Source of the DNA: a virus
Length of the DNA stretch: 20,094 nucleotides
IMG/VR virus record: IMGVR_UViG_3300006484_000077
Span: 1 to 20,094 of that record
Direction: 5' to 3' (one strand)
Position 1 is the stretch's first letter. Each line of letters starts with the position of its first letter. The position numbers and the translations under genes are program-made. Below are positions 1 through 20,084 of the stretch, piece by piece. Below the pieces are notes generated by a model. The model searched no databases, had not been told where the DNA came from, and saw only the letters and a program-made list of their open reading frames with translations.

Positions 1-258
1 GTATTCTTTTGTTCCATCTTCGGCGCCACCTTCTTCTCTTATCCAGAATACATTTTCCTGTAACCATGTGCGAAGTTTCATATCTCTTTCGCTTCTTCCT
101 AGATACATCCAAAAGTGTCCCTTAATACTACACTGGCTAGGAATATTATTAATTACTGTTTGTAAATATTTTAAATCTTTTTTTGGTATATCAGTGTTTT
201 CTTCTGAAAAGAATCTTGTTGTGGTCCTATTTGTCCATATTGATTTATTCAGTATCAT
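1..258 (-). CDS. Nitroreductase-like protein, N-terminal part (gene runs off left edge)
   Basis: An open frame of 86 codons starts with ATG at 258 and is still open at base 1, so only the N-terminus is present. It overlaps the stop of the upstream gene as ATGA, and an AGGAG box lies 7 bases before the ATG, inside the last codons of that gene. This points to coupled translation. Residues 7-16 (IWTNRTTRFF) and 38-52 (IPSQCSIKGHFWMYL) follow the N-terminal pattern of nitroreductase-fold FMN proteins: an Arg-x-Thr/Ser-x-Arg-x-Phe segment, then Pro-Ser before a short hydrophobic strand. In that family these arginines and serine contact the flavin. The catalytic half and dimer segments are outside the window, so enzyme activity cannot be judged. 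The alternative is an unrelated phage protein with a chance match. Confidence 0.5.
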   Translation of the reverse strand, partial: MILNKSIWTNRTTTRFFSEENTDIPKKDLKYLQTVINNIPSQCSIKGHFWMYLGRSERDMKLRTWLQENVFWIREEGGAEDGTKEY

Positions 259-1232
259 TTATTTTCTCCTATACTTAGTGTTATATAATTACTCTTATAT
301 AATAACAACGGCTTCTTTGGCCATTTAAAATCGATTGTAGTAGTAATTTTATCTTCGTCAATTAAAAGTTTAGTTGGCACACTAACTGCACCTACAAAAT
401 TATCTGGTTGATCATCGCATACAATAAACTTTAGTGAACTCTTGCCTTCAAAGAAATAAAGAAGATCTTTATTTAATTCAGACTCAATTGTTAATTGGTT
501 ATCTACTACGTTAATATTTATGCTAGTCTTATTATCTGCATTTGCTTGTTTTAATATCTTATACGATTCGGTTGCTTTAGAAATAGACTTTGTTGATAGT
601 AACTTATAACCATAATTTTCAAATACTGGCTTTGCATATAAACTTATATTATTCCAGTCTACATGTTCTGTAATTGTTTTATCCAACTCTATTGTTTGCG
701 ATCCTTCTTTAAAAAGTGTTAAGGGATCTATGTTAATCACTGTAATTAAATAATCTGGATCATTCTTTTTTGTAACATATATGTCTAACAGCTCTGTCTT
801 TTTTGTTGATATTTCTTGTATGTCACTTAAATTTTTAATGCTTTGTATGTTTCCTTTATTAGCATGAACTACAGCAGCATTGTCATTATAATGTATGTCA
901 ACAAATAATTCTGTATCTTTTCTTTCAATGTCGTTTTTAAATGGCAGTAATTTATTATCACTTGATTCTAATATTAATCTAGTACTGCGTTTACCAATGT
1001 TCCATTTATCATTAACAAGGTCCCATATAATTCCATACTTTTTTATACTTGCTTGTCCCTTTATTAATTTCTTACATACAGGATTATTACTTTCAATCTG
1101 AGTAAGGGTAGTGTCAGCTAGCTTACCCACAGGTGAACTATTGATCTTACGAATGTTACCGTTAGTATCAAATACTATATAATAAGTACGGCTATCGTTT
1201 TGCTGTGGCTCTGTAAGTGTTTTTGTGACCAT
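255..1232 (-). CDS. Hypothetical protein, 325 residues, unrecognised
   Basis: I do not recognise this protein. It is acidic to neutral, rich in Lys, Asn, Asp, Ile and Thr, and has no signal peptide or membrane segment. The N-terminus contains a strand-like segment YYIVFDTNGNI (17-27), and the C-terminus ends in a beta-rich stretch with FKWPKK (303-308). The pattern of alternating hydrophobic residues suggests a mostly beta protein, which would suit a fibre or virion accessory part, but that is inference. The ATG at 1232 lies 41 bases inside the preceding gene in another frame. No other ATG, GTG or TTG start was found before the homogeneous part of the protein, and only a weak AGAAG stands upstream. 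Its stop overlaps the next start as ATGA. It belongs to the same coupled cluster as the two glycosyltransferases. Confidence 0.8.
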   Translation of the reverse strand: MVTKTLTEPQQNDSRTYYIVFDTNGNIRKINSSPVGKLADTTLTQIESNNPVCKKLIKGQASIKKYGIIWDLVNDKWNIGKRSTRLILESSDNKLLPFKNDIERKDTELFVDIHYNDNAAVVHANKGNIQSIKNLSDIQEISTKKTELLDIYVTKKNDPDYLITVINIDPLTLFKEGSQTIELDKTITEHVDWNNISLYAKPVFENYGYKLLSTKSISKATESYKILKQANADNKTSININVVDNQLTIESELNKDLLYFFEGKSSLKFIVCDDQPDNFVGAVSVPTKLLIDEDKITTTIDFKWPKKPLLLYKSNYITLSIGENK

Positions 1233-2046
1233 TAAAAATATCTTCTGTTAGGAACTCTTGTTCTCCGTAATATAAATTAGTAGCAACTGCATAATTTTGT
1301 ATTTTTACTTTTGCATTGTTACTCGACCATGTGTTTAATCTATCAGTCCATTTATTCCATCTACCAATGTTACCATGCACTAGTGTAGCCGGCATATTAA
1401 TTGTGTTGATAATATTATGTGCAGGTGCGTTATCGTATAATACTATTGTGTTTAATATACTATACATTAAATCGCTATTGTATAGATCTGGAATATGTGC
1501 CTTTGATAAGTAATGTGCAAAAGTATCTCGCCAGTTTTGCATAAATGCATCTGCTAGTTTAAAAAATGCAAGCGATAAATCAGTGTCATGCTTAAAGTAA
1601 AACATATGCGAATACACTGTATTAAGTTTATATTCTGTTTTTAGTATTTCAAAGTTTTTATTTATTAACGGCGCTCCTCTAAAATTAAAACAATTATCAA
1701 AAAAGTAAATGTCATAATGATCTTCTAAGTATTCCCATATGCTATCGTGGTTTTCTTTTACAAGACTTGCACAATCAATAACAATGTTATGTGTATATGG
1801 TGTTGCCCAATATAGTTGCCAATCGTTTGTTCTTGTGCCATCTGAAAAGCCATATGGCAATTTTATTAAATGATCAAATATTTCTCTACAATGCTCTGGC
1901 ACACGATCTGTAAAGTTAGTTACTAGTGTCACACTAGCATCTTGGTTGAGTATCTTAATACTATATGCAAGTGCAGTAGCCTGTTCAAACTCAAACGATT
2001 CCATTGCTAATATTACGTAACCGCGGTGTTCTTTAACTGTTTCCAT
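1192..2046 (-). CDS. Glycosyltransferase-like protein with degenerate metal-binding motif
   Basis: This 284-residue protein is a paralogue of the gene just upstream. The N-terminal beta-alpha-beta unit (GYVILAMESFEFEQAT at 9-24, then SVTLVTN at 38-44) matches the nucleotide-sugar-binding start of GT-A glycosyltransferases. The segment TPYTHNIVIDCASLV (82-96) lines up with SPFEQTLLLDIDYIV of the neighbour. The second Asp of the DxD metal-binding motif is therefore replaced: D91-C92-A93-S94. A later block around 134-190, with a Phe-rich helix and NSDLMYSIL, also lines up with the neighbour. GT-A enzymes generally need DxD to hold the metal and nucleotide-sugar, so this copy may be inactive, metal-independent or a partner of the other copy. 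GGAGG stands before the ATG, which overlaps the end of the upstream gene by 14 bases. It ends with TAG, 41 bases inside the next gene. Confidence 0.7.
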   Translation of the reverse strand: METVKEHRGYVILAMESFEFEQATALAYSIKILNQDASVTLVTNFTDRVPEHCREIFDHLIKLPYGFSDGTRTNDWQLYWATPYTHNIVIDCASLVKENHDSIWEYLEDHYDIYFFDNCFNFRGAPLINKNFEILKTEYKLNTVYSHMFYFKHDTDLSLAFFKLADAFMQNWRDTFAHYLSKAHIPDLYNSDLMYSILNTIVLYDNAPAHNIINTINMPATLVHGNIGRWNKWTDRLNTWSSNNAKVKIQNYAVATNLYYGEQEFLTEDIFNGHKNTYRATAKR

Positions 2047-2938
2047 CTAGTGCCTCCATTAAATCCGGTAGCACACGACCAAGTGCTCTTTTATTCATAA
2101 CATGTATATCTTGGTTGGACGAATTAACTAAAATATGTTTCCATACTTCTTTCTGATCGTGTGCAACCATTATCCATTCATTGTCATTTTTAGCTTCAAT
2201 AATATCATCCTTCTGGCTCATGTTCATTAGAGAAGTGTCGTCGAAGTTACCTAACAGTAACTGAGTCTCTTGCATTCCTGCTAGTATATGTACTGCTATA
2301 CTAACACAATAGTCTGTGCGAAATAGTTTGCTAGGGAAGTTATACAAGTATTGATAGAATTCATAGTTCTCTGCTACATGAGCCCATGTATCAAAAAATA
2401 GTTTACTAAAGTCGCTACGGTCAAAATACACAACAGTACTCCACCACATTTTAATTCCTGCATCATATAAGAAGCGTTCTTCATTTGCAGGTAATTCGTG
2501 TCTAAGTGTAGTAGCTCGATCAAACATACACAACGGTCGTTCGTTATCAAAATACTTTAATAGCATATCAGTCTTTACAATATAATCAATGTCTAGCAGT
2601 AGCGTTTGTTCAAACGGACTGTATTGATATATTTTATGCTTATTACTATTATTAAATTGTGCAGCAAATTGTGTCCATGGACTATCAAAGTGCCGTCTTT
2701 TGTTTTGTTTCATCTCGTCATTGGTAGTTACAATATAATCAAATGCTTGATTAATTTGCTCTTTAGAATGACTTTCTTCTAGCCAGCCTTCACTTCCTTC
2801 ATCAGTAATTAAACACACTGGAAGTTTTAAATTCTTTTTAACATATCTGGCAGCTACTGTTGCCATCTTAACATAATCTAATTGATCGTTGTTGTAAGCA
2901 AAGAAGCATACGCCTTTTGGTTCTAGAATAGATTCCAT
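2033..2938 (-). CDS. GT-A-type glycosyltransferase with intact DxD motif
   Basis: This 301-residue cytosolic protein has no signal peptide. Residues 8-46 (KGVCFFAYNND..., then LPVCLITDE) form the typical opening of a GT-A fold. SPFEQTLLLDIDYIV (107-121) carries an intact D116-I117-D118, the expected divalent-metal and sugar-nucleotide site. A Trp/Phe-rich block (165-190) and a C-terminal HVMNKRALG (279-287) resemble late acceptor or nucleotide-binding elements of such enzymes, where a His often follows the DxD site in sequence. The donor and acceptor cannot be read from the sequence. In a tail-gene neighbourhood, likely roles are decoration of virion proteins or alteration of host surface glycans (inference). 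The ATG shares one base with the upstream stop (TAATG), with only a weak GGAC-like box. The end overlaps the paralogous gene by 14 bases, so translation of the three genes looks coupled. Confidence 0.75.
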   Translation of the reverse strand: MESILEPKGVCFFAYNNDQLDYVKMATVAARYVKKNLKLPVCLITDEGSEGWLEESHSKEQINQAFDYIVTTNDEMKQNKRRHFDSPWTQFAAQFNNSNKHKIYQYSPFEQTLLLDIDYIVKTDMLLKYFDNERPLCMFDRATTLRHELPANEERFLYDAGIKMWWSTVVYFDRSDFSKLFFDTWAHVAENYEFYQYLYNFPSKLFRTDYCVSIAVHILAGMQETQLLLGNFDDTSLMNMSQKDDIIEAKNDNEWIMVAHDQKEVWKHILVNSSNQDIHVMNKRALGRVLPDLMEALDGNS

Positions 2939-3285
2939 TACCAGTCCATTATTTTCTTAATGTTTCGTGCTTTCTTTATCTTTTCATTTTCAATATCAAA
3001 TTCTGTAGTAGCACTAGTGTATGCATCAACTAATTTTTCTAATAGTTCTGATAATTTCTTTACTGTAATAGGATTGTTTTTGCTATCAATGACAATAGAT
3101 TTTTTATGTTTTAAATCTATTAATGTTTTTATAAACGCTATTGTTTCATGGTCAGCAATAAACACACCACCTAAGTGATGTACAATTTGTAGTTGTGCTA
3201 CTCTGTTCCTGATGTTTCTCTTTTGATTGTTAATCGTTAAAGCATAGTTACTAAAGTCTAATGCCTTTTCGAGTCTTTCGTCCAT
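2938..3285 (-). CDS. Small conserved-looking phage protein, 115 residues
   Basis: This is a basic, mostly alpha-helical 115-residue protein. The N-terminal block RLEKALDFSNYALTINNQKR (4-23), a central HHLGGVF (36-42) and a C-terminal helix with KIKKAR (102-107) resemble a small protein I associate with virion regions of marine T4-like phages, but I know no function for it. A short strand KSIVIDSKNNPITV (62-75) looks like a beta hairpin between two helical regions. There is no membrane segment or cysteine. It is the first gene after the promoter region at 3286-3348, with an AAGGAGT box 7 bases before its ATG. It is coupled to the glycosyltransferase by TAATG. Possible roles are a chaperone, an assembly factor or a small regulator; none can be favoured. 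Confidence 0.8.
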   Translation of the reverse strand: MDERLEKALDFSNYALTINNQKRNIRNRVAQLQIVHHLGGVFIADHETIAFIKTLIDLKHKKSIVIDSKNNPITVKKLSELLEKLVDAYTSATTEFDIENEKIKKARNIKKIMDW

Positions 3286-3348: not shown

Positions 3349-4584
3349 TTAAGTATTTTTTTTGTATCTGCTACCGCTGTGTAGCGTCCATTCCGGATCA
3401 ACATTTGTATCTGAAGTCCAGTCAATTAGTTGTTCGCCATCTGGTGCATCCACTGGTGTCCATGGTGTTTCTTCCATAACTGTTGGTGCATTGCGTTCTA
3501 AAAATCTAAATACAGTAGATCCCACTGTTGTATAATTTAATCCAGGATCACTTGGATCATTTAACACTGGAGCAGTACTTGGTTGTGCATATCCAGATGT
3601 AAGTGTTATATCTTGTGTAATAGCTGATATATCATCAACATCTTCAATTAGTATAACTTTAACATATACATTAAATGTTCCGCCAACTTGATCTGCTTTT
3701 AATTGGATTCTTATTCTTCTACTATTATACTCACTATACATGTATACATATGCATATGCGTATGCATCTCCGCCTACACTATGATAATGAAAAACACCTG
3801 CATCAAGTATAGTATTAAATTCTGGTGTAGTTGAATATAGTATTCCTGTATAAAATCCTTTGTTCAATCCACTTGTAGATACAACATCCCATTGTGTTTC
3901 GCCCGAGTCGTCGTCTGTTACAACTCTACAAGTTTCTGCACCAATTCTAATACTATCAAACTGATCAAATATATCTCTCCATACATTATTATATGCATCG
4001 CCACCCTCGACCATTCCTAGCTCAAGTGTTAGCTCGCCACCACTATTAAAAAAGTGTCTAGCTTCGTTATAGTCTGTAAACATAAATTTATGAATTATTT
4101 CTAAGTCGTCTGTCCAGCTAGCAGTATTAGTTGATATCACTTCTGCTAAACTTAAATTAATCCAGTCTACTTTGTATTTGTCTGTTTTTAAACTTTCAGC
4201 GTAGTCAACTACAGAGTTATATAATGTGGTAGGAATTTTAACCTCAGGTGTTACAGTAAGATCAGTGAGAGGCATTAGCCCTGCTGTAATGACATTGTCT
4301 TCTTTGTGATATGCGCCTGCATTAAGTTGAGAAGTGATCTGATTAATATCGCTTATGGTTACTATTGTTGCATTGGGAGGACCTTGTGGTGTGGGTGTTA
4401 TAGTTGCTAATGTTTGTCCCCATCCATATCTTCTGTCGTCTGTTCCTGTGCTATGATCATCATCAAAAGAAAACCCACCGGTAATAGGATCATGCCAGAA
4501 TTCATTATAATAATCTACAAGATCATTTAAATGATTGGCTTCTATTAATCCACCTGTGATAACCGCAGTAGGCTTAACTTGCAT
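3349..4584 (-). CDS. Tail fibre-like virion structural protein, 411 residues
   Basis: This protein has the look of a phage tail or fibre component. Residues 51-57 (RRYGWGQ) and 176-185 (RHFFNSGGEL) are motifs I associate with tail-fibre proteins of large myoviruses. The middle and C-terminal parts are beta-rich, with an alternating tyrosine strand at 273-283 and Thr/Ser/Asp-rich turns. There is no signal peptide or catalytic motif, and only one cysteine was noticed (C219). It starts directly after the stop of the upstream gene (TAA then ATG) with GGAG about 11 bases before, so it belongs to the late structural operon. It ends just before the promoter region at 3286-3348. It would be assembled onto the baseplate or act as a fibre segment; the exact position in the particle cannot be told. 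Confidence 0.7.
   Translation of the reverse strand: MQVKPTAVITGGLIEANHLNDLVDYYNEFWHDPITGGFSFDDDHSTGTDDRRYGWGQTLATITPTPQGPPNATIVTISDINQITSQLNAGAYHKEDNVITAGLMPLTDLTVTPEVKIPTTLYNSVVDYAESLKTDKYKVDWINLSLAEVISTNTASWTDDLEIIHKFMFTDYNEARHFFNSGGELTLELGMVEGGDAYNNVWRDIFDQFDSIRIGAETCRVVTDDDSGETQWDVVSTSGLNKGFYTGILYSTTPEFNTILDAGVFHYHSVGGDAYAYAYVYMYSEYNSRRIRIQLKADQVGGTFNVYVKVILIEDVDDISAITQDITLTSGYAQPSTAPVLNDPSDPGLNYTTVGSTVFRFLERNAPTVMEETPWTPVDAPDGEQLIDWTSDTNVDPEWTLHSGSRYKKNT
3735..3767. repeat. 33-base alternating pyrimidine-purine tract in the fibre-like gene
   Basis: Every base from 3735 to 3767 alternates pyrimidine and purine without a break, built from TA, CA, TG and CG steps. It encodes D273 to Y283, in which tyrosine occupies every second residue (YAYAYVYMY). 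The tract could arise by slippage of a short repeat and be kept because the alternating side chains suit a beta strand. Such tracts can also adopt left-handed DNA, though this one is TA-rich. Confidence 0.8.
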
Positions 4585-5523
4585 TTACTTTACTCCAACT
4601 ATTACTTCTATTACGCCTTCGCCCGGAGTTGTTTTAGACTGAAGTGCTCTGCCTATAACTTGCTGATAACTGTGTTCATTAACATTGTGTGCTGACTGTC
4701 CGTGTCCTGGAGTACCACTAGTAACAATCCTGTCACCCTTGGTAATTTGTCCAGTAACTTTACATGGAACTCTACCAAGCAATGCTATGCCCACTGTAAC
4801 TCCTGCTAACTTACTGTTCATTAATAACGCTGGATCAGTTGTAACAATACCTAGTACATCTGTATCAGCTGCCTCTGATGTTTCTGTAACCTCGGCAGTT
4901 CCACCTATTTTCATAACATGTCCTGGTTCGTATTCTTTATCCGAAGTATAAAGCTCTGCCACGTCAGCGTATAGTGCCGTAGTTGCAGTTCCGTGAAACT
5001 TCATTGCCTTTACACTATTTGTATTTAAATTAATACCTGCTTTGATAGTTGCCGTATCAGCTGCATTAATATCGCCTGCATCTCTAAAATAAGGTTCGAT
5101 ATCTGTTTCAGAAATATTAATAACCCAGTCTGTAGTATCTGAACTTGCAAGAGATGTAATTACTCCGTTTACTTTAGATAGAACAACTGTATGGGAAATA
5201 TTTCCTGTGTCTAATACTTGTACTACTTTTGATCCTGCATCAACTCCTATCCATGTACCGTTGCTTCGTACAGACAACTGGTCATCTGCTGGATTCCACC
5301 AAAGCTGTCCTTCAATGGGATTATTTGGAGCAGTGTCGCTTGCAAAATTTTCTAATAAGCTGACTTGGTTTTGAGCAATGTCGGCACCGTATCCAACATG
5401 ATACTTGCCCACTAAACTTAAACTAGTATCTGTTACATTTACAGTTTCATCAGCAATATTAAAACTTCCGCCATTGTTAGTGCCTGTTACACCGTGTTTG
5501 CTAATTGTATATCCTGATGCCAT
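4585..5523 (-). CDS. Tail fibre-like structural protein with LLENFA and GRVP-type domains
   Basis: Two domains can be seen. The N-terminal half has SLSLVGKYHVGYG (34-46), SLLENFASDTAP (55-66) and GQLWWN (72-77), a signature of T4-like marine phage tail-fibre proteins near the particle attachment end. The C-terminal half has YADVAELY (185-192), then YEPGHVMKIGG, VLGIVTTDPALLMN (223-236), GRVPCKVTG (250-258) and VIGRAL (289-294). That series occurs at the ends of many phage fibre and host-specificity proteins and resembles the conserved part of the Peptidase_G2 self-cleaving chaperone domain. No catalytic residues for self-cleavage are evident, so cleavage is not claimed. AGGAGT precedes the ATG, and the upstream stop is one base away. 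It is probably a receptor-contacting or fibre-connecting protein made late. Confidence 0.75.
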   Translation of the reverse strand: MASGYTISKHGVTGTNNGGSFNIADETVNVTDTSLSLVGKYHVGYGADIAQNQVSLLENFASDTAPNNPIEGQLWWNPADDQLSVRSNGTWIGVDAGSKVVQVLDTGNISHTVVLSKVNGVITSLASSDTTDWVINISETDIEPYFRDAGDINAADTATIKAGINLNTNSVKAMKFHGTATTALYADVAELYTSDKEYEPGHVMKIGGTAEVTETSEAADTDVLGIVTTDPALLMNSKLAGVTVGIALLGRVPCKVTGQITKGDRIVTSGTPGHGQSAHNVNEHSYQQVIGRALQSKTTPGEGVIEVIVGVK

Positions 5524-5524
5524 G

Positions 5525-6118
5525 TTATACTCCTGCTCTAATTCTTAGAGTATATAATATCTCTAATTTTCTGTTATTACTTTTTTGAATAGGATGAAAT
5601 ATTAAATGTGTTAAGTATGTGCCTGCACTAGACATTAATGCAATCTCATCAAATACAAAACTATCTGGATCATCAAAGTCTGATGCATTGTCTGTAACTG
5701 GTCCTGTTGCGTCTGGTTCGTTATAATCTAATATAACTTTACACTCTAAGTCTGAGTATGGTTGGTTGGCTGCATTATTAACAATAAATGTAGCTGCTTT
5801 CTGTAATGGACTTACTGTTGGGTCTGCACCAATTGTTGCAGGACTTGTACTATATAATCCATCTACTGATTGACCAGATACTCTTGCATCTTTGTATGTC
5901 ATGTTTCCGTTAACGTCAATTGTAGTACCACCGTAACCAAATTCTAGTTTGTTTACTGCATATGTAGTGTCTCCACTCATTGCTTGTGCTACTGCAAATG
6001 CAAAGTTTTGGAAGTTAATTGCGTTATATTTGTCAAGTAAAACTTCACCTGAATCAGCATCTGTGATTACAACATGTCCTTCTACTTTAACGTTTGAGTT
6101 TTCGTTTAATGTTTTCAT
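5525..6118 (-). CDS. Virion structural protein, 197 residues, tail-associated
   Basis: This is a soluble, beta-rich protein with no catalytic motif. Residues 13-35 contain GHVVITDADSGEVLLDKYNA, and 59-65 read EFGYGGT. A start of the form GHV-x-I-x-D-x-x-SGE-V-LLDK-x-NAI followed by a glycine-rich G-x-GGT turn is typical of small tail proteins in T4-like marine phages. The Arg/Leu-rich C-terminus (IRAGV) ends on strands, as in small baseplate or fibre-adaptor proteins. It is the first gene after the gap at 6119-6162, which carries a late-promoter motif, and its ATG is preceded by AGGAAT. It is followed one base after its stop by the LLENFA-type fibre gene. It may connect fibres to the baseplate (inference from order only). 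Confidence 0.65.
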   Translation of the reverse strand: MKTLNENSNVKVEGHVVITDADSGEVLLDKYNAINFQNFAFAVAQAMSGDTTYAVNKLEFGYGGTTIDVNGNMTYKDARVSGQSVDGLYSTSPATIGADPTVSPLQKAATFIVNNAANQPYSDLECKVILDYNEPDATGPVTDNASDFDDPDSFVFDEIALMSSAGTYLTHLIFHPIQKSNNRKLEILYTLRIRAGV

Positions 6119-16539: not shown

Positions 16540-19500
16540 TTAACTTCCTGCTTTAATGTTTGCGTCTGTAATATTTGTAATAATATCTATATCATTTACA
16601 TTCACATCTGGTATAATAAGTTCATCACTGTTTGGAGTAAATTCAAACATGTCTCCAAATACACTTCCTGCTCCTTGCGGTACAATAACAAAACTACTTA
16701 GTACGCCAGCTAGTTCCTTGTGTACATATGCAGCTAGTTCTGTAAAGTAAAATGTTTCACCAAACTCCCAATTGCTTGAATCGAAGAAACTTTTTATAGC
16801 TGTTACTGTTTTTGATTTTAAATCACTGTCAGTAATGTTTGAGCCAAACAATTTAATTATTCTAAATCTTGCTTTAAGATGTGACTCAGCATGTTCTCCG
16901 AACACCGGCTTGTACTTAACTGGTTTATAAACAATAGTATCACTTACTGCCTTTTTACCAGTAATACTAGAAAACTGCGATCCTAGTTGGAAACTAGTAG
17001 GTGGTGTTGGTTCTGTTAAAATTGCATCGTTTAAATAATTTTTGTATTCTGTATCGTATGCAGTTGATAATGCAAACACATCAATAATATTAGTAAAGCT
17101 AGGATCCACTACTTGGTTATCTGTAGCAATATGTTCCCATTGAAAGTTTACCGGAATACTATCTGTTGCTTTTAATGAACTGTTTGTGTTATCATTTGTT
17201 GTGCCTACTACTTCTCTGAATACATCAGGATTATCAGGTCTGCTATCAGCATTACTATCAACAAGTGTTAATTTATAATCACTGTTGCTTCCTGTAACAT
17301 TATAACCATATACAAAAAATGTTCCTGTGTTAGTTATGTTTGTACCATCTGTTCCTAACATAGTAATAACATCTCTTTTTGCTTTCTTTGTATAGTTTCC
17401 TATATCTAATTCATTTTTGATATTTCCCAAAGACACTGTGTCGCTTTTAAATTCAAATCCCAATGTTCTTAAGTAAATGTTATACGATATGCTTGTCCAG
17501 TCAAAGAATATAATCCAACTGTCATTGGATGGATAAAAGTTTGTAGGGTAATCGCTTGCCCAATCGTTGTCTGTTGGCTGAAAGTCTGCTCCCCATTCTT
17601 TGGTTGCTGGTGTATATTTTAAACTAAACTGTCTTTTTGATTCTATCATGTCTATGATTAATTCTTGCTCTCTTGCAGAAAATTTCTTAGATAACGCAGG
17701 ATATATAATTTCAATAGTACTACCTGTTATAATTCCGGCATCTAATACTACAGCACCCGTGCCGTCTGCTTTCTTACCAGTTGGTTGTCCAGCATTACTT
17801 CCTGTACCTTCTATTCCTAGTCCATGTCCGACCATACTAACTACTTTTGCCCACTGAAATGTATTATCTGGTTTTCTAAATTTAATCATTGCACCTGGTG
17901 TAATATATTGTGTATAGTCTGCTGTAACTGTAGCACCTATGCGTTTAATAACATTTGATGCATCAGTAAAGTAACCATTTAAAATATTACTTGCAGTATT
18001 ACTATTAGTATTCCAAGTATATGTTGATGCTGCTTCTACAGTTTCTGTAGTGTCTCCAGCAGATACTGAACCATCAAAGTGGCCTATTGCAACTGCAAGA
18101 TTAACAAAATGTTTTCTATATCTTGTGTAATATAAATTTACAAGCTCGTCATTGTTTAAAATGTTTTTAATATACTTTTCAAATATTTGTTTTGCATTTT
18201 CAGTAGACGATGTAGAAAACTCTTGTACATTTTCTTTCCATTCTATTTCTGCATCTTTACCTGTTAGGTATAGGTTAGTGTATGTTCCTGTAGGATCAAT
18301 AAACTTTGAATATCTACTGTGTCCACTAAATGTTCTGTTAACACTTTTAATTTTTAATACGCTACCATTACTGTTACCTAACATTGTATTGTAGTCTTGT
18401 GCTGTAATCATTCTATCTTGACTAGCATAGTTTCTTGGAGCGTTTTCTCTAATTTCGTCTAAGCTCTCATTTGAGCTTGCATTTGATATTGGTTGTTTAA
18501 TTTGTATAACAAATACAGCAGTATATGTATTACCGTCAATACCAGTATAATTTATTTGTACTTTTTTAGTTGGAAGATCATCTGGTCTCAATATGTATGT
18601 ACTGTTGGCACTTGTTCTGTACCATACTCTAATAGCTTCTTTTGGTAGATTACCAAATGTGCTATCAGGGAATAAAATAGATACTTGATTGTTTTCTCTT
18701 GTCTTGACACTGAATATATCTCGCTGACCTGTTGTTAAGTTGTTGTATATTACATTACTGTTTACATCTTTAACTTTGGTCCACTCTTTAACAATGTTAC
18801 CAGTGGCATTAATATTTTGTACCCATATGTCTGTATTGTTAACATTTTTAGCATCAACATCCAATGATGTAGAATCAACTGGATTAGAAATATTATAATC
18901 CTGGTATTGCAATGTTCCTTGTTTAACACCAAAGAAGAATCCAGTACTAGCACTGTTCATTCCTTTGCCATCATCTTTAAAATATATTCCAAAACTTCCT
19001 TCTGGGTCTGGAGATTTTTCTGTAAATGTTCTTAAGTCATTGTCGTAGTCACTGCTTATGATATCAAACGAGGATGATGTTCCTGCTACTGATCCTAGTG
19101 TATCAAATTTAATTTGATTAGGAGTATTATTAATATCATAGAATTCTGTTTTTATATTATTAATTACTACTGACTTTTTTGGACTACCATAATGATTGCT
19201 GTTCTGTAGGATAGAGTTTAACACAGTAATAAAGTCATCTAAGTTGTTAACATTATTTGAAACTTCATATTTAATATCTCGTCCACCTAAACTTGTTCCG
19301 TCACTGCCGATAACACTTTCATTTGTTTTAATACTAATTACTTTCATCTCACCGTACGCTGGCACATTGCGTCTTGGTTGATAACCTAAAAATTCTGCTA
19401 ATTTGTAAACACTCTCTTGTCTTTGGGAAGTACTTAAAAAGTTATTCCTTGCATTCATATCTACTCGATATGCTAAGTTGTGTCCAAACTGTGCAACTAC

Positions 19501-19698
19501 ATCTAGTAGTGATACAAATTCAGCTGATTCAACCCAGTCATTGTAGTTCTCTGGGTAATTGTTGCGTACATAGTCAACCATTGCAGTTCTAATAGTATCA
19601 AAGTCAAATGCTTGAAAGTTTGCATTGATGTATGATTCATAGATTACTGTAAAGTCCTCTGCCGCAAATAGTTTATTTTGTCTTGATTTCTGTGCCAT
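16540..19698 (-). CDS. 6: Baseplate wedge protein gp6
   Basis: This protein forms the ring-forming wedge scaffold of T4-like baseplates. The N-terminus carries the family signature: NYPENYNDWVESAEF (47-61), a run through YRVDMNARNNFLSTSQR (77-93) and YQPRRNVPA (106-114). ENAPRNYASQDR followed by MITAQDY (418-437) matches the baseplate-J-like core. The last hundred residues (SDLKSKTVTAIKSFFD, then FYFTELAAYVHK) fit the C-terminal domain that pairs gp6 copies around the ring. At 1052 residues it is well above the 660 of T4 gp6; the extra length lies between about 500 and 900 and includes a MIKFRKPDN...W strand set and RQFSLKYTPATKEW, a pattern I associate with marine relatives. It starts two bases after the gp25 stop with only a weak AGAG box, so it is probably coupled to gp25. 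Confidence 0.9.
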   Translation of the reverse strand: MAQKSRQNKLFAAEDFTVIYESYINANFQAFDFDTIRTAMVDYVRNNYPENYNDWVESAEFVSLLDVVAQFGHNLAYRVDMNARNNFLSTSQRQESVYKLAEFLGYQPRRNVPAYGEMKVISIKTNESVIGSDGTSLGGRDIKYEVSNNVNNLDDFITVLNSILQNSNHYGSPKKSVVINNIKTEFYDINNTPNQIKFDTLGSVAGTSSSFDIISSDYDNDLRTFTEKSPDPEGSFGIYFKDDGKGMNSASTGFFFGVKQGTLQYQDYNISNPVDSTSLDVDAKNVNNTDIWVQNINATGNIVKEWTKVKDVNSNVIYNNLTTGQRDIFSVKTRENNQVSILFPDSTFGNLPKEAIRVWYRTSANSTYILRPDDLPTKKVQINYTGIDGNTYTAVFVIQIKQPISNASSNESLDEIRENAPRNYASQDRMITAQDYNTMLGNSNGSVLKIKSVNRTFSGHSRYSKFIDPTGTYTNLYLTGKDAEIEWKENVQEFSTSSTENAKQIFEKYIKNILNNDELVNLYYTRYRKHFVNLAVAIGHFDGSVSAGDTTETVEAASTYTWNTNSNTASNILNGYFTDASNVIKRIGATVTADYTQYITPGAMIKFRKPDNTFQWAKVVSMVGHGLGIEGTGSNAGQPTGKKADGTGAVVLDAGIITGSTIEIIYPALSKKFSAREQELIIDMIESKRQFSLKYTPATKEWGADFQPTDNDWASDYPTNFYPSNDSWIIFFDWTSISYNIYLRTLGFEFKSDTVSLGNIKNELDIGNYTKKAKRDVITMLGTDGTNITNTGTFFVYGYNVTGSNSDYKLTLVDSNADSRPDNPDVFREVVGTTNDNTNSSLKATDSIPVNFQWEHIATDNQVVDPSFTNIIDVFALSTAYDTEYKNYLNDAILTEPTPPTSFQLGSQFSSITGKKAVSDTIVYKPVKYKPVFGEHAESHLKARFRIIKLFGSNITDSDLKSKTVTAIKSFFDSSNWEFGETFYFTELAAYVHKELAGVLSSFVIVPQGAGSVFGDMFEFTPNSDELIIPDVNVNDIDIITNITDANIKAGS

Positions 19699-19700
19699 AA

Positions 19701-20084
19701 TTAAAACTCTGCGTTTTCTATAAATTCTTTGTCGAATTTAATCTGCAACTCTGTTGCAGTTGTTTCTGGTAAGTAAGTTAGTTTTACATTAACTGTTACC
19801 GAATGTGTGTCGTGTACAACTCTTATATCTGAATCGTTTACTTCGAATCTAGGATCGTAATTTATTATTGCATTGACTTCTTCTTCAATAGCATCTTGTG
19901 TTTGCTGATCTAATGGATCAAACACATATAGTTCTAAGTTACTTCCAAATTCAGGGTCAGTCCATTTCTCGCCTTTGCGAATTTTAAAATGATTTAATAG
20001 ATCCTGCTTTGCCAATTCAAGGCCAGAAAGCGTTTTACTAGTATATGATTGATTGACTGTTGTGTATCCAAATATATTGCTCAT
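19701..20084 (-). CDS. 25: Baseplate wedge protein gp25 (lysozyme-like fold family)
   Basis: This 127-residue protein is close in length to T4 gp25 (132). DLLNHFKIRKGEKWTDPEFG (28-47), FDPLD (55-59) and DPRF (77-80) are the conserved blocks of the GPW/gp25 family. The family was named for a supposed lysozyme activity but is structural: it joins gp6 and gp53 in the wedge and nucleates the sheath. The start is the only Met near the N-terminus. The ten bases left before the window edge contain AAATAG, which looks like a late-promoter core, but no Shine-Dalgarno box. The frame stays open to the edge, so a start further upstream cannot be excluded. It leads straight into gp6. Confidence 0.9.
   Translation of the reverse strand: MSNIFGYTTVNQSYTSKTLSGLELAKQDLLNHFKIRKGEKWTDPEFGSNLELYVFDPLDQQTQDAIEEEVNAIINYDPRFEVNDSDIRVVHDTHSVTVNVKLTYLPETTATELQIKFDKEFIENAEF

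Follow-up and report, generated by a model that had tools for sequence, protein, structure and literature searches.

Pseudoenzyme partners of glycosyltransferases occur in bacteria as well as in eukaryotes. Here we describe a candidate for such a partnership in a virus: two tandem genes, GT1 and GT2, in a 20,094-base virus record (IMG/VR IMGVR_UViG_3300006484_000077, positions 1 to 20,094; the whole stretch is referred to as the window), where they belong to a tail gene block on the minus strand. Among the described systems, GtfA and GtfB are encoded by adjacent genes, with GtfB as the non-catalytic, acceptor-binding partner, and EXT1-EXT2 is another pair comparable to CHSY1/3-CHPF. In chondroitin polymerase, CHSY1/3 provides the active glycosyltransferase, and the complex cannot do without CHPF, a DxD-less paralogue that has been kept (PMC12748766). 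The phage pair is like CHSY1/3-CHPF in combining an intact glycosyltransferase with a retained, DxD-less paralogue, and CHSY3-CHPF is a tested precedent in that account. It differs in that the polymerase is eukaryotic and has two glycosyltransferase domains per chain of the GT31/GT7 families, and in that the complex is demonstrated there and predicted here. GtfA and GtfB, which glycosylate streptococcal adhesins, are likewise portrayed in the relevant part of the source as two related transferases acting as a heterodimer (PMC8561734); unlike GT1 and GT2, they have the GT-B fold, are bacterial and act on a secreted adhesin. Moraphages, large aquatic phages, carry four putative glycosyltransferase orthogroups among their core genes together with gp25/gp6 baseplate families (PMC12619734); our comparison with these orthogroups is by description only, and the section of that paper that treats them mentions neither pairing nor motif loss. 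Searches of a library of open-access papers listed none that describes two paired glycosyltransferases of a phage of which one is disarmed.

On balance, we consider it probable that GT1 works as a glycosyltransferase of the metal-dependent GT-A type and that GT2, in the lineage of the window, is a conserved non-catalytic paralogue, that is, a pseudo-glycosyltransferase. The loss of catalysis is what we infer from the GT2 sequence, and the following features carry the argument (amino acids are numbered in the window's proteins):

2033..2938, minus strand: GT1, glycosyltransferase-like protein of GT-A fold, 301 amino acids, donor-site residues intact (open reading frame, AlphaFold model, structure matches)
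2873..2875, minus strand: GT1 Tyr22, present in 224 of 224 distinct GT1 proteins
2585..2593, minus strand: GT1 D116-I117-D118, the DxD motif, with D116 and D118 in 224 of 224
2090..2104, minus strand: GT1 H279 to K283, the C-terminal His and Lys, both in 224 of 224
1192..2046, minus strand: GT2, paralogous protein of GT-A fold, 284 amino acids, degenerate donor site (open reading frame, model, fold matches)
1990..1992, minus strand: GT2 Glu19, in place of the nucleotide-loop Tyr of the intact ExD clade (column comparison)
1768..1776, minus strand: GT2 D91-C92-A93 at the DxD position; Asp93 is gone in 48 of 48 members of two degenerate clades
1270..1272, minus strand: GT2 Tyr259, in place of the C-terminal His of the intact clades (column comparison)

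Fold and common origin of GT1 and GT2

The sequence-only reading of this DNA had taken GT1 and GT2 for overlapping duplicates with a DID motif in the first and a DCA motif in the second, and the open reading frames bear out the coordinates, both motifs and the overlap (14 bases, 2033-2046). The similarity of the two proteins is real: pairwise blastp aligns about 90 residues at an E-value of 0.008, none of 1000 shuffles attained the end-gap-free global score and one of 1000 attained the local score, and hhalign joins the GT1 and GT2 profiles (24 sequences each) over 219 columns with a probability of 97% and an E-value of 3.2e-11. The pairwise and the profile alignment both pair GT2 D91 with GT1 D116 and GT2 A93 with GT1 D118. 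Judged by these comparisons, and above all by the profile-profile alignment, which upholds the proposed duplication, GT1 and GT2 are distant paralogues.

We built single-chain AlphaFold models from alignments of each window protein with 23 relatives, which reached a model confidence (pLDDT) of 89.6 for GT1 and 90.3 for GT2. Foldseek (best-match E-values 7e-7 and 2e-9) and VIA-align matched both models to GT-A enzymes such as glycogenin, LARGE1, LgtC, GlyE and UGGT. In VIA-align, where rows within 1 Z of each other count as ties, the best match of GT1 was 3u2w_A (Z 15.5, root-mean-square deviation 4.0, 224 residues aligned) and that of GT2 was 5gvw_D (GlyE; Z 15.9, root-mean-square deviation 3.8, 223 residues aligned), with glycogenin at Z 15.7. 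The matches listed, 50 per structure search, appear to be GT-A enzymes, and matches of another fold may lie beyond the list; the T4-type DNA glucosyltransferases have the GT-B fold. Both models display the GT-A fold of the glycogenin/LgtC type and share it with glycogenin, LgtC, GlyE, LARGE1 and the UGGT catalytic domain over nearly their whole length.

At the level of sequence, a GT2 profile of 103 members found glycogenin (E-value 1e-5) and aligned the motif position to the glycogenin DAD. A profile of 26 distant GT2 proteins (set A6) gave a weak RtcB match and no glycogenin in the PDB, so the glycogenin match is owed to profiles with members of the window's clade. For GT1, profile searches of the PDB returned no credible solved relative. 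No Pfam family matched the window's GT1 or GT2 at an E-value of 1, and Glyco_transf_8 (PF01501) was found neither in the window record nor among the 25 families matched by the 103 GT2 proteins and the 21 matched by 109 GT1 proteins (E-value 0.1). Single members weakly matched other glycosyltransferase families (Nucleotid_trans, E-value 0.016; Glyco_transf_56, E-value 0.0053). Because Glyco_transf_8 is not matched, we call the proteins GT8-like in fold and do not assign them to GT8 itself. Like the GT8-type enzymes glycogenin, LgtC, GlyE and LARGE1, GT1 has a DxD motif and a conserved C-terminal His and Lys. The pair differs from them, besides the missing Pfam match, in that the window's GT2 lacks the metal-site residues and in that the two form a viral tandem.

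No usable family emerged when members of GT1 and GT2 were scanned against Pfam and PHROG, or the 26 distant GT2 proteins against NCBIfam; only phrog_1903, of unknown function, recurred. It matched 30 of 103 GT2 and 7 of 109 GT1 proteins at an E-value of 0.1 or less (best 1e-10 and 1e-5, respectively) and probably holds distant relatives; the window's own GT1 and GT2 proteins do not match it.

Donor-site residues across the two families

To compare donor sites we used a signature of five residues: the Tyr that, by its role in GT8 structures, we take to belong to the nucleotide-binding loop (Tyr22 in GT1), the two acids of the DxD motif, and the C-terminal His and Lys. We regard H279 of GT1 as presumably the second half of a GT8 metal site, and its position and conservation point to the GT8 metal His. 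None of the 224 distinct complete GT1 proteins lacks any of the five (Tyr22, D116, D118, H279 and K283), which gives GT1 an invariant predicted metal site of DxD and C-terminal His, whereas the window's GT2 has DCA and Tyr259 at these places. Across GT2 as a whole, 162 of 213 distinct complete proteins keep the acid pair and the His and 51 do not. The loss of the donor site in GT2 is therefore, as far as the sequences tell, not general and is confined to part of the tree.

The clades of GT2 differ in how much of the signature they keep. In the ExD clade (140 proteins), 137 members have five of five and three have four, and both subunits probably still bind donor there. The DxD clade (21 proteins) keeps the metal site in 21 of 21, has lost the Tyr in 21 of 21 and mostly misses the Lys, leaving three to four of the five. 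Two degenerate clades, one of 38 proteins that includes the window and one of 10, keep zero to two: Asp93 and the Tyr in 0 of 48, the His in 2, the Lys in 3 and the first acid in 39. In the window's clade taken by itself, Asp93 and the Tyr are absent from 38 of 38 members, the His from 36 and the Lys from 35. The GT2 proteins of loci L034, L040, L153 and L080 are intermediate or isolated. In sorting the first 103 GT2 proteins we drew on a tree from which the motif columns were left out; the 110 from later scans were assigned to the ExD clade directly, with no tree, and all of them are intact, three with D for E. One of the distant GT2 scans used a peptide pattern that contained the motif and is biased, and the scans with GT1 only are unbiased. 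Among the distinct GT2 proteins under loci from the latter (identical ones being filed under one locus only), 2 of 20, 18 of 33 and 66 of 66 are intact; searching with the motif does not make the split of intact and degenerate proteins.

Because the degenerate clades were chosen for their lack of Asp93, its absence there is not an independent test. Rather, the independent evidence of donor-site loss, read from the alignment, is that the C-terminal His is gone too. Twenty-one GT2 columns are conserved in both intact clades (at least 90%, D and E pooled), Asp93 among them. His259 is the one column among the remaining 20 that collapses in each of the two degenerate clades (0 of 10 and 2 of 38). 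Pro142 collapses in the 38-row clade only (0 of 38 versus 7 of 10), and the rest stay or drift in part, most at Ala158 (4 of 10 and 19 of 38) and Thr87 (7 of 10 and 22 of 38). Q77, W233, K248, N251 and Y260 are fixed in 48 of 48 degenerate GT2 proteins.

In a joint tree of 28 GT1 and 46 GT2 representatives each family forms one clade (100/100). When GT1 serves as the root, the degenerate rows sit within a clade of 32 rows (99/98) beside ExD rows, with the basal order of the ExD rows not settled by the tree; in a GT2 tree without the motif columns they fall into separate groups. The state of GT1 together with that of the ExD clade gives the direction of change as loss. On the best tree Asp93 needs two changes and His259 three. 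A single clade of the 50 motif-lost rows was rejected (p 1e-13), and one of 51 rows that includes L153 (ESD, His lost) was not (p 0.229), so we dropped a claim of several independent losses; between one and three are possible from these alignments. Whether Asp93 and His259 change together was tested on two independent pairs, too few to reach significance.

The distances of GT1 and GT2 correlate across 101 loci (Mantel r 0.71, against 0.07 for the best of 500 permutations), as they do within 70 near loci (r 0.90) and within 30 far loci (r 0.90). Divided by the GT1 distance, the GT2 distance averages 0.88 for the ExD clade, 1.33 for the DxD clade and 1.50 for the degenerate rows, so that even in the DxD clade GT2 is the freer of the two. 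In pairs drawn from the window and 11 near relatives, the median ratio of nonsynonymous to synonymous change (dN/dS) is 0.15 for GT2 (60 of 66 pairs usable) and 0.11 for GT1 (52 of 66), rough values given synonymous distances to the window of 0.7 to 2.2. A ratio near 0.15 places GT2 under purifying selection, not in decay.

These results sharpen what the sequence-only reading had proposed for the second gene. That it is conserved agrees with the selection estimate, and a consistent loss of the second Asp in an orthologous group is borne out by the window's clade, which is starred (100/98) in the tree without motif columns and whose 38 distinct members all lack this residue. Homologues that keep DxD, which the reading had named as grounds for giving the idea up, do exist in the other clades as just described; taken literally that objection holds, and for the window's clade the rooting on GT1 makes the state read as a derived loss. 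As to a different acid at the metal place, the column comparison alone reveals no newly fixed acid common to both degenerate clades except at position 156 (87% and 80%), where 48% of the DxD clade have an acid as well. It does reveal acids specific to single clades. A derived, conserved pseudoenzyme is well supported in the sense of donor-site loss; in the window's clade the Tyr and, nearly always, the His and the Lys are gone besides the Asp.

The pair and its gene block

We scanned viral contigs with either GT1 or GT2 (keeping, in two of these scans, the best 80 of 134 and the best 80 of 119 relatives), which gave 164 loci besides the window, and twice more with distant members (best 80 of at least 598 and best 80 of at least 585), which gave 159 new loci. 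Each scan used one protein, so that its partner was not selected for, and a contig often came up in more than one retrieval. GT2 comes directly after GT1 in 163 of the 164 and 157 of the 159 loci, 320 of 323 in total, and the three unpaired loci are contigs that end inside GT1. In 320 of 320 pairs both genes lie on one strand, and in 318 they overlap or are separated by 30 bases or fewer (3 or fewer in the first set); a gap of 234 bases separates them in L221 and L222. The pair is embedded in the following genes of the window, all on the minus strand:

16540..20084: baseplate wedge proteins, gp6-like (1052 amino acids) and gp25-like (127 amino acids), from Pfam and PHROG scans and matches to phage records
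6163..16536: protein of 3457 amino acids, open reading frame only
3349..6118: three upstream genes of 411, 312 and 197 amino acids, open reading frames in the same order in relatives
2938..3285: protein of 115 amino acids directly before GT1, open reading frame with no assigned function
255..1232: protein of 325 amino acids directly after GT2, open reading frame with uncertain start codon and no assigned function
1..258: start of a further gene, inside which the window ends

The gp6-like protein (16540-19698) has its best phage matches, at 34-35% identity, in the jumbo myophages SCTP-2, Phosso, Atu_ph07 and GAP32. A cluster of large open reading frames (c7) occupies the position of the 3457-residue gene in 63 of 109 distinct loci. 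The 312-residue protein matches tail-fibre and virion PHROGs, and the 197-residue protein a PHROG of unknown function. The family of the 115-residue protein, which has no Pfam match at an E-value of 1 and a best PHROG E-value of 0.037, lies upstream of GT1 in 108 of the 109 loci, immediately so in 107. The 325-residue gene shares 41 bases with the end of GT2. By eye, the gene cut off at the window's end is like a 253-residue protein of L001, whose weak Pfam Nitroreductase match (E-value 0.009) is below the cut-off.

Downstream of the pair, 100 of the 109 distinct loci encode a third, 328-residue glycosyltransferase-like protein. Such proteins (about 300-330 residues; L001:8556-9542 and equivalents) carry a YGNGG stretch, and the DxD residues D65 and D67 are invariant in nine aligned members. 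An hhalign comparison with GT1 (38%, E-value 3e-4) is suggestive only of a relationship in sequence, and one member weakly matches Glycos_transf_2. In L039 (7683-9470), a 595-residue open reading frame seems to hold both a 325-residue-type and a 328-residue glycosyltransferase-like protein, an apparent fusion that hints that the two work together; our cluster c1 joins the two families. A short protein (c8) that follows GT2 in the distant clade was considered as the equivalent of the start of the 325-residue protein, an idea that found no support (hhalign probability 1%). Cluster c2 lies downstream of the pair in 80 of 109 loci, and the two members we scanned are both radical S-adenosylmethionine (radical-SAM) proteins, one with a SPASM domain. 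Radical-SAM genes after the glycosyltransferase cluster are often in tandem (L001:9539-11113 and L081:11337-12653, c2), and a joint modification of virion proteins with the cluster is possible. In L030 (9653-10992), genes for dihydrofolate reductase and thymidylate synthase stand between the cluster and radical-SAM-type genes; the corresponding clusters, c11 and c12, occur in nine loci each.

In tblastn searches of 50,697 phage records, the GT1, GT2, 115-residue and 325-residue proteins of the window and the GT1 and GT2 of L095 had no match at an E-value of 1e-3, and the GT2 of L113 and the GT1 of L080 had none at 0.1. Profiles found no GT1 or GT2 relative in about 43 kb around the gp6-like gene of Sinorhizobium phage Phosso (L166) and Salicola phage SCTP-2 (L167), and a gene named glycosyltransferase in that region was rejected by the same test. 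Two scans of GTDB genome contigs, each with two peptide patterns only, returned no relative.

Possible roles of GT2

The best explanation for a conserved, probably donor-blind paralogue beside an intact one is that it serves as a non-catalytic subunit. GT2 shows two marks of a pseudo-glycosyltransferase partner: it is a paralogue that co-occurs with an intact transferase, and its donor site is lost across an orthologous group under purifying selection; a physical complex needed by the active partner would be the third. Several points weigh against this explanation. The complex, the catalysis and the acceptor are all drawn from sequence and single-chain models, and the virion as target from gene neighbourhood; the entire gene block is conserved in order, so that adjacency by itself is no proof of interaction. 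The assignment of the active site rests on the glycogenin alignment, which ends just past the DxD, on the GT1-GT2 alignment and on conservation, and the C-terminal His and Lys, outside the glycogenin-aligned stretch, were placed by the latter two. Nor is the pocket wholly erased, as shown by the first acid (kept in 39 of 48) and the His (2 of 38 in the window's clade). Finally, position 19, where the ExD clade has its Tyr, is acidic (Glu or Asp) in 35 of the 38 proteins of the window's clade, and new acids have become fixed in the 10-row clade, including those at 54, 147 and 221 in 10 of 10; an acid at a new position may serve GT2 as a substitute metal ligand.

GT-A enzymes of family GT14 are metal-independent and neutralize the diphosphate without a metal, and GT2 could still be an enzyme of that kind, with a basic residue or another group in this role. 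Part of the degenerate set is indeed basic at the third motif position (DCK, DCR, DRR, DRH and others), the 38-row clade has new basic columns at positions 72 (92%) and 246 (89%), and K248 is invariant in both degenerate clades. Yet position 93 is mixed in the 38-row clade (13 Ala, 10 Tyr, 8 Lys, 4 Ser, 2 Arg and one other), and K248 is no new substitute, being an Arg in the intact ExD clade. The loss of the nucleotide-loop Tyr (0 of 48), with an acid there in most of the window's clade, also argues against ordinary donor binding, an argument weakened by the DxD clade, which lacks the Tyr and keeps the metal site. We regard this alternative as quite unlikely. Slightly less improbable, but still unlikely in our judgment, is that GT2 has a non-catalytic role of its own, as a sugar-binding or structural virion protein that does not work with GT1. 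Here the newly conserved columns of GT2 and the fact that gene order is conserved across the block, not in the pair alone, count in its favor; against it, the two genes are paralogous and adjacent wherever the contig has room for both, and GT1 differs at nine positions (at least 85% fixed per group) between partners of the DxD clade and of the window's clade, which perhaps reflects shared ancestry only. That GT2 is decaying and on its way out we hold to be very improbable. It is more divergent than GT1 in the degenerate rows than in the ExD clade (1.50 versus 0.88), but the DxD clade with its intact metal site has a ratio of 1.33 as well, dN/dS is low, the frame is open and about full length in relatives with room, and five residues are fixed in 48 of 48.

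The target of the pair is a separate matter that overlaps these readings. The fixed place in the tail block favors a virion protein. It is possible, although we think it the weaker case, that the pair modifies the host envelope (the lipopolysaccharide O-chain) or the phage DNA, with GT2 as a helper or a vestige. Pelagimyophages carry glycosyltransferases, with GT8 as the best-represented family, often in a variable region with tail-fibre genes, and the part of the paper that deals with them reads these as O-chain modifiers (PMC7029224); DNA, serotype and virion targets are all discussed in the corresponding part of the moraphage paper (PMC12619734). By contrast, GT1 and GT2 sit in a fixed-order block after the baseplate genes, and a change of target says nothing on the state of GT2.

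With GT2 as a non-catalytic subunit, GT1 would bind the sugar nucleotide and transfer the sugar in complex with GT2, and GT2 would stabilize GT1 and/or hold the acceptor. The acceptor may be a tail or baseplate protein from the neighbouring genes, and the third glycosyltransferase-like protein and the radical-SAM enzymes of the cluster would finish its modification. The ancestral device would have consisted of two active, donor-binding transferases, from which the disarmed version is derived. The erosion of GT2 would have taken the Tyr and mostly the Lys in the DxD clade, where the metal site is kept, and the metal site too in the window's clade. More broadly, and as a tentative idea that we would not rate as probable, a wide group of uncultured phages may use an obligate GT-A heterodimer, at first two active transferases and, in the window's lineage, with GT2 as the donor-blind holder of the acceptor, to build a glycan on their own tail or baseplate together with the third glycosyltransferase and the radical-SAM enzymes.

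Two stretches of GT1 are nearly invariant in the window's half of the family, R-x-H-x-D-S-P-W at residues 81-88 (window 2675-2698) and QKDD at residues 242-245 (window 2204-2215). Both are missing or unconserved in the ExD clade, and on this pattern they are candidates for an interface or acceptor loop.

Pseudoenzyme partners of glycosyltransferases are known from eukaryotes; the one proposed here is virus-borne, belongs to the GT-A class and appears at graded stages of erosion. Intact, half-eroded and fully eroded donor sites coexist in one viral family beside a partner that is intact in all 224 sequences examined, and these natural pairs make the conversion of an enzyme into a subunit directly testable by comparison. 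They also place a candidate modifying complex, made of proteins without a family name, in the tail block of many uncultured phages.

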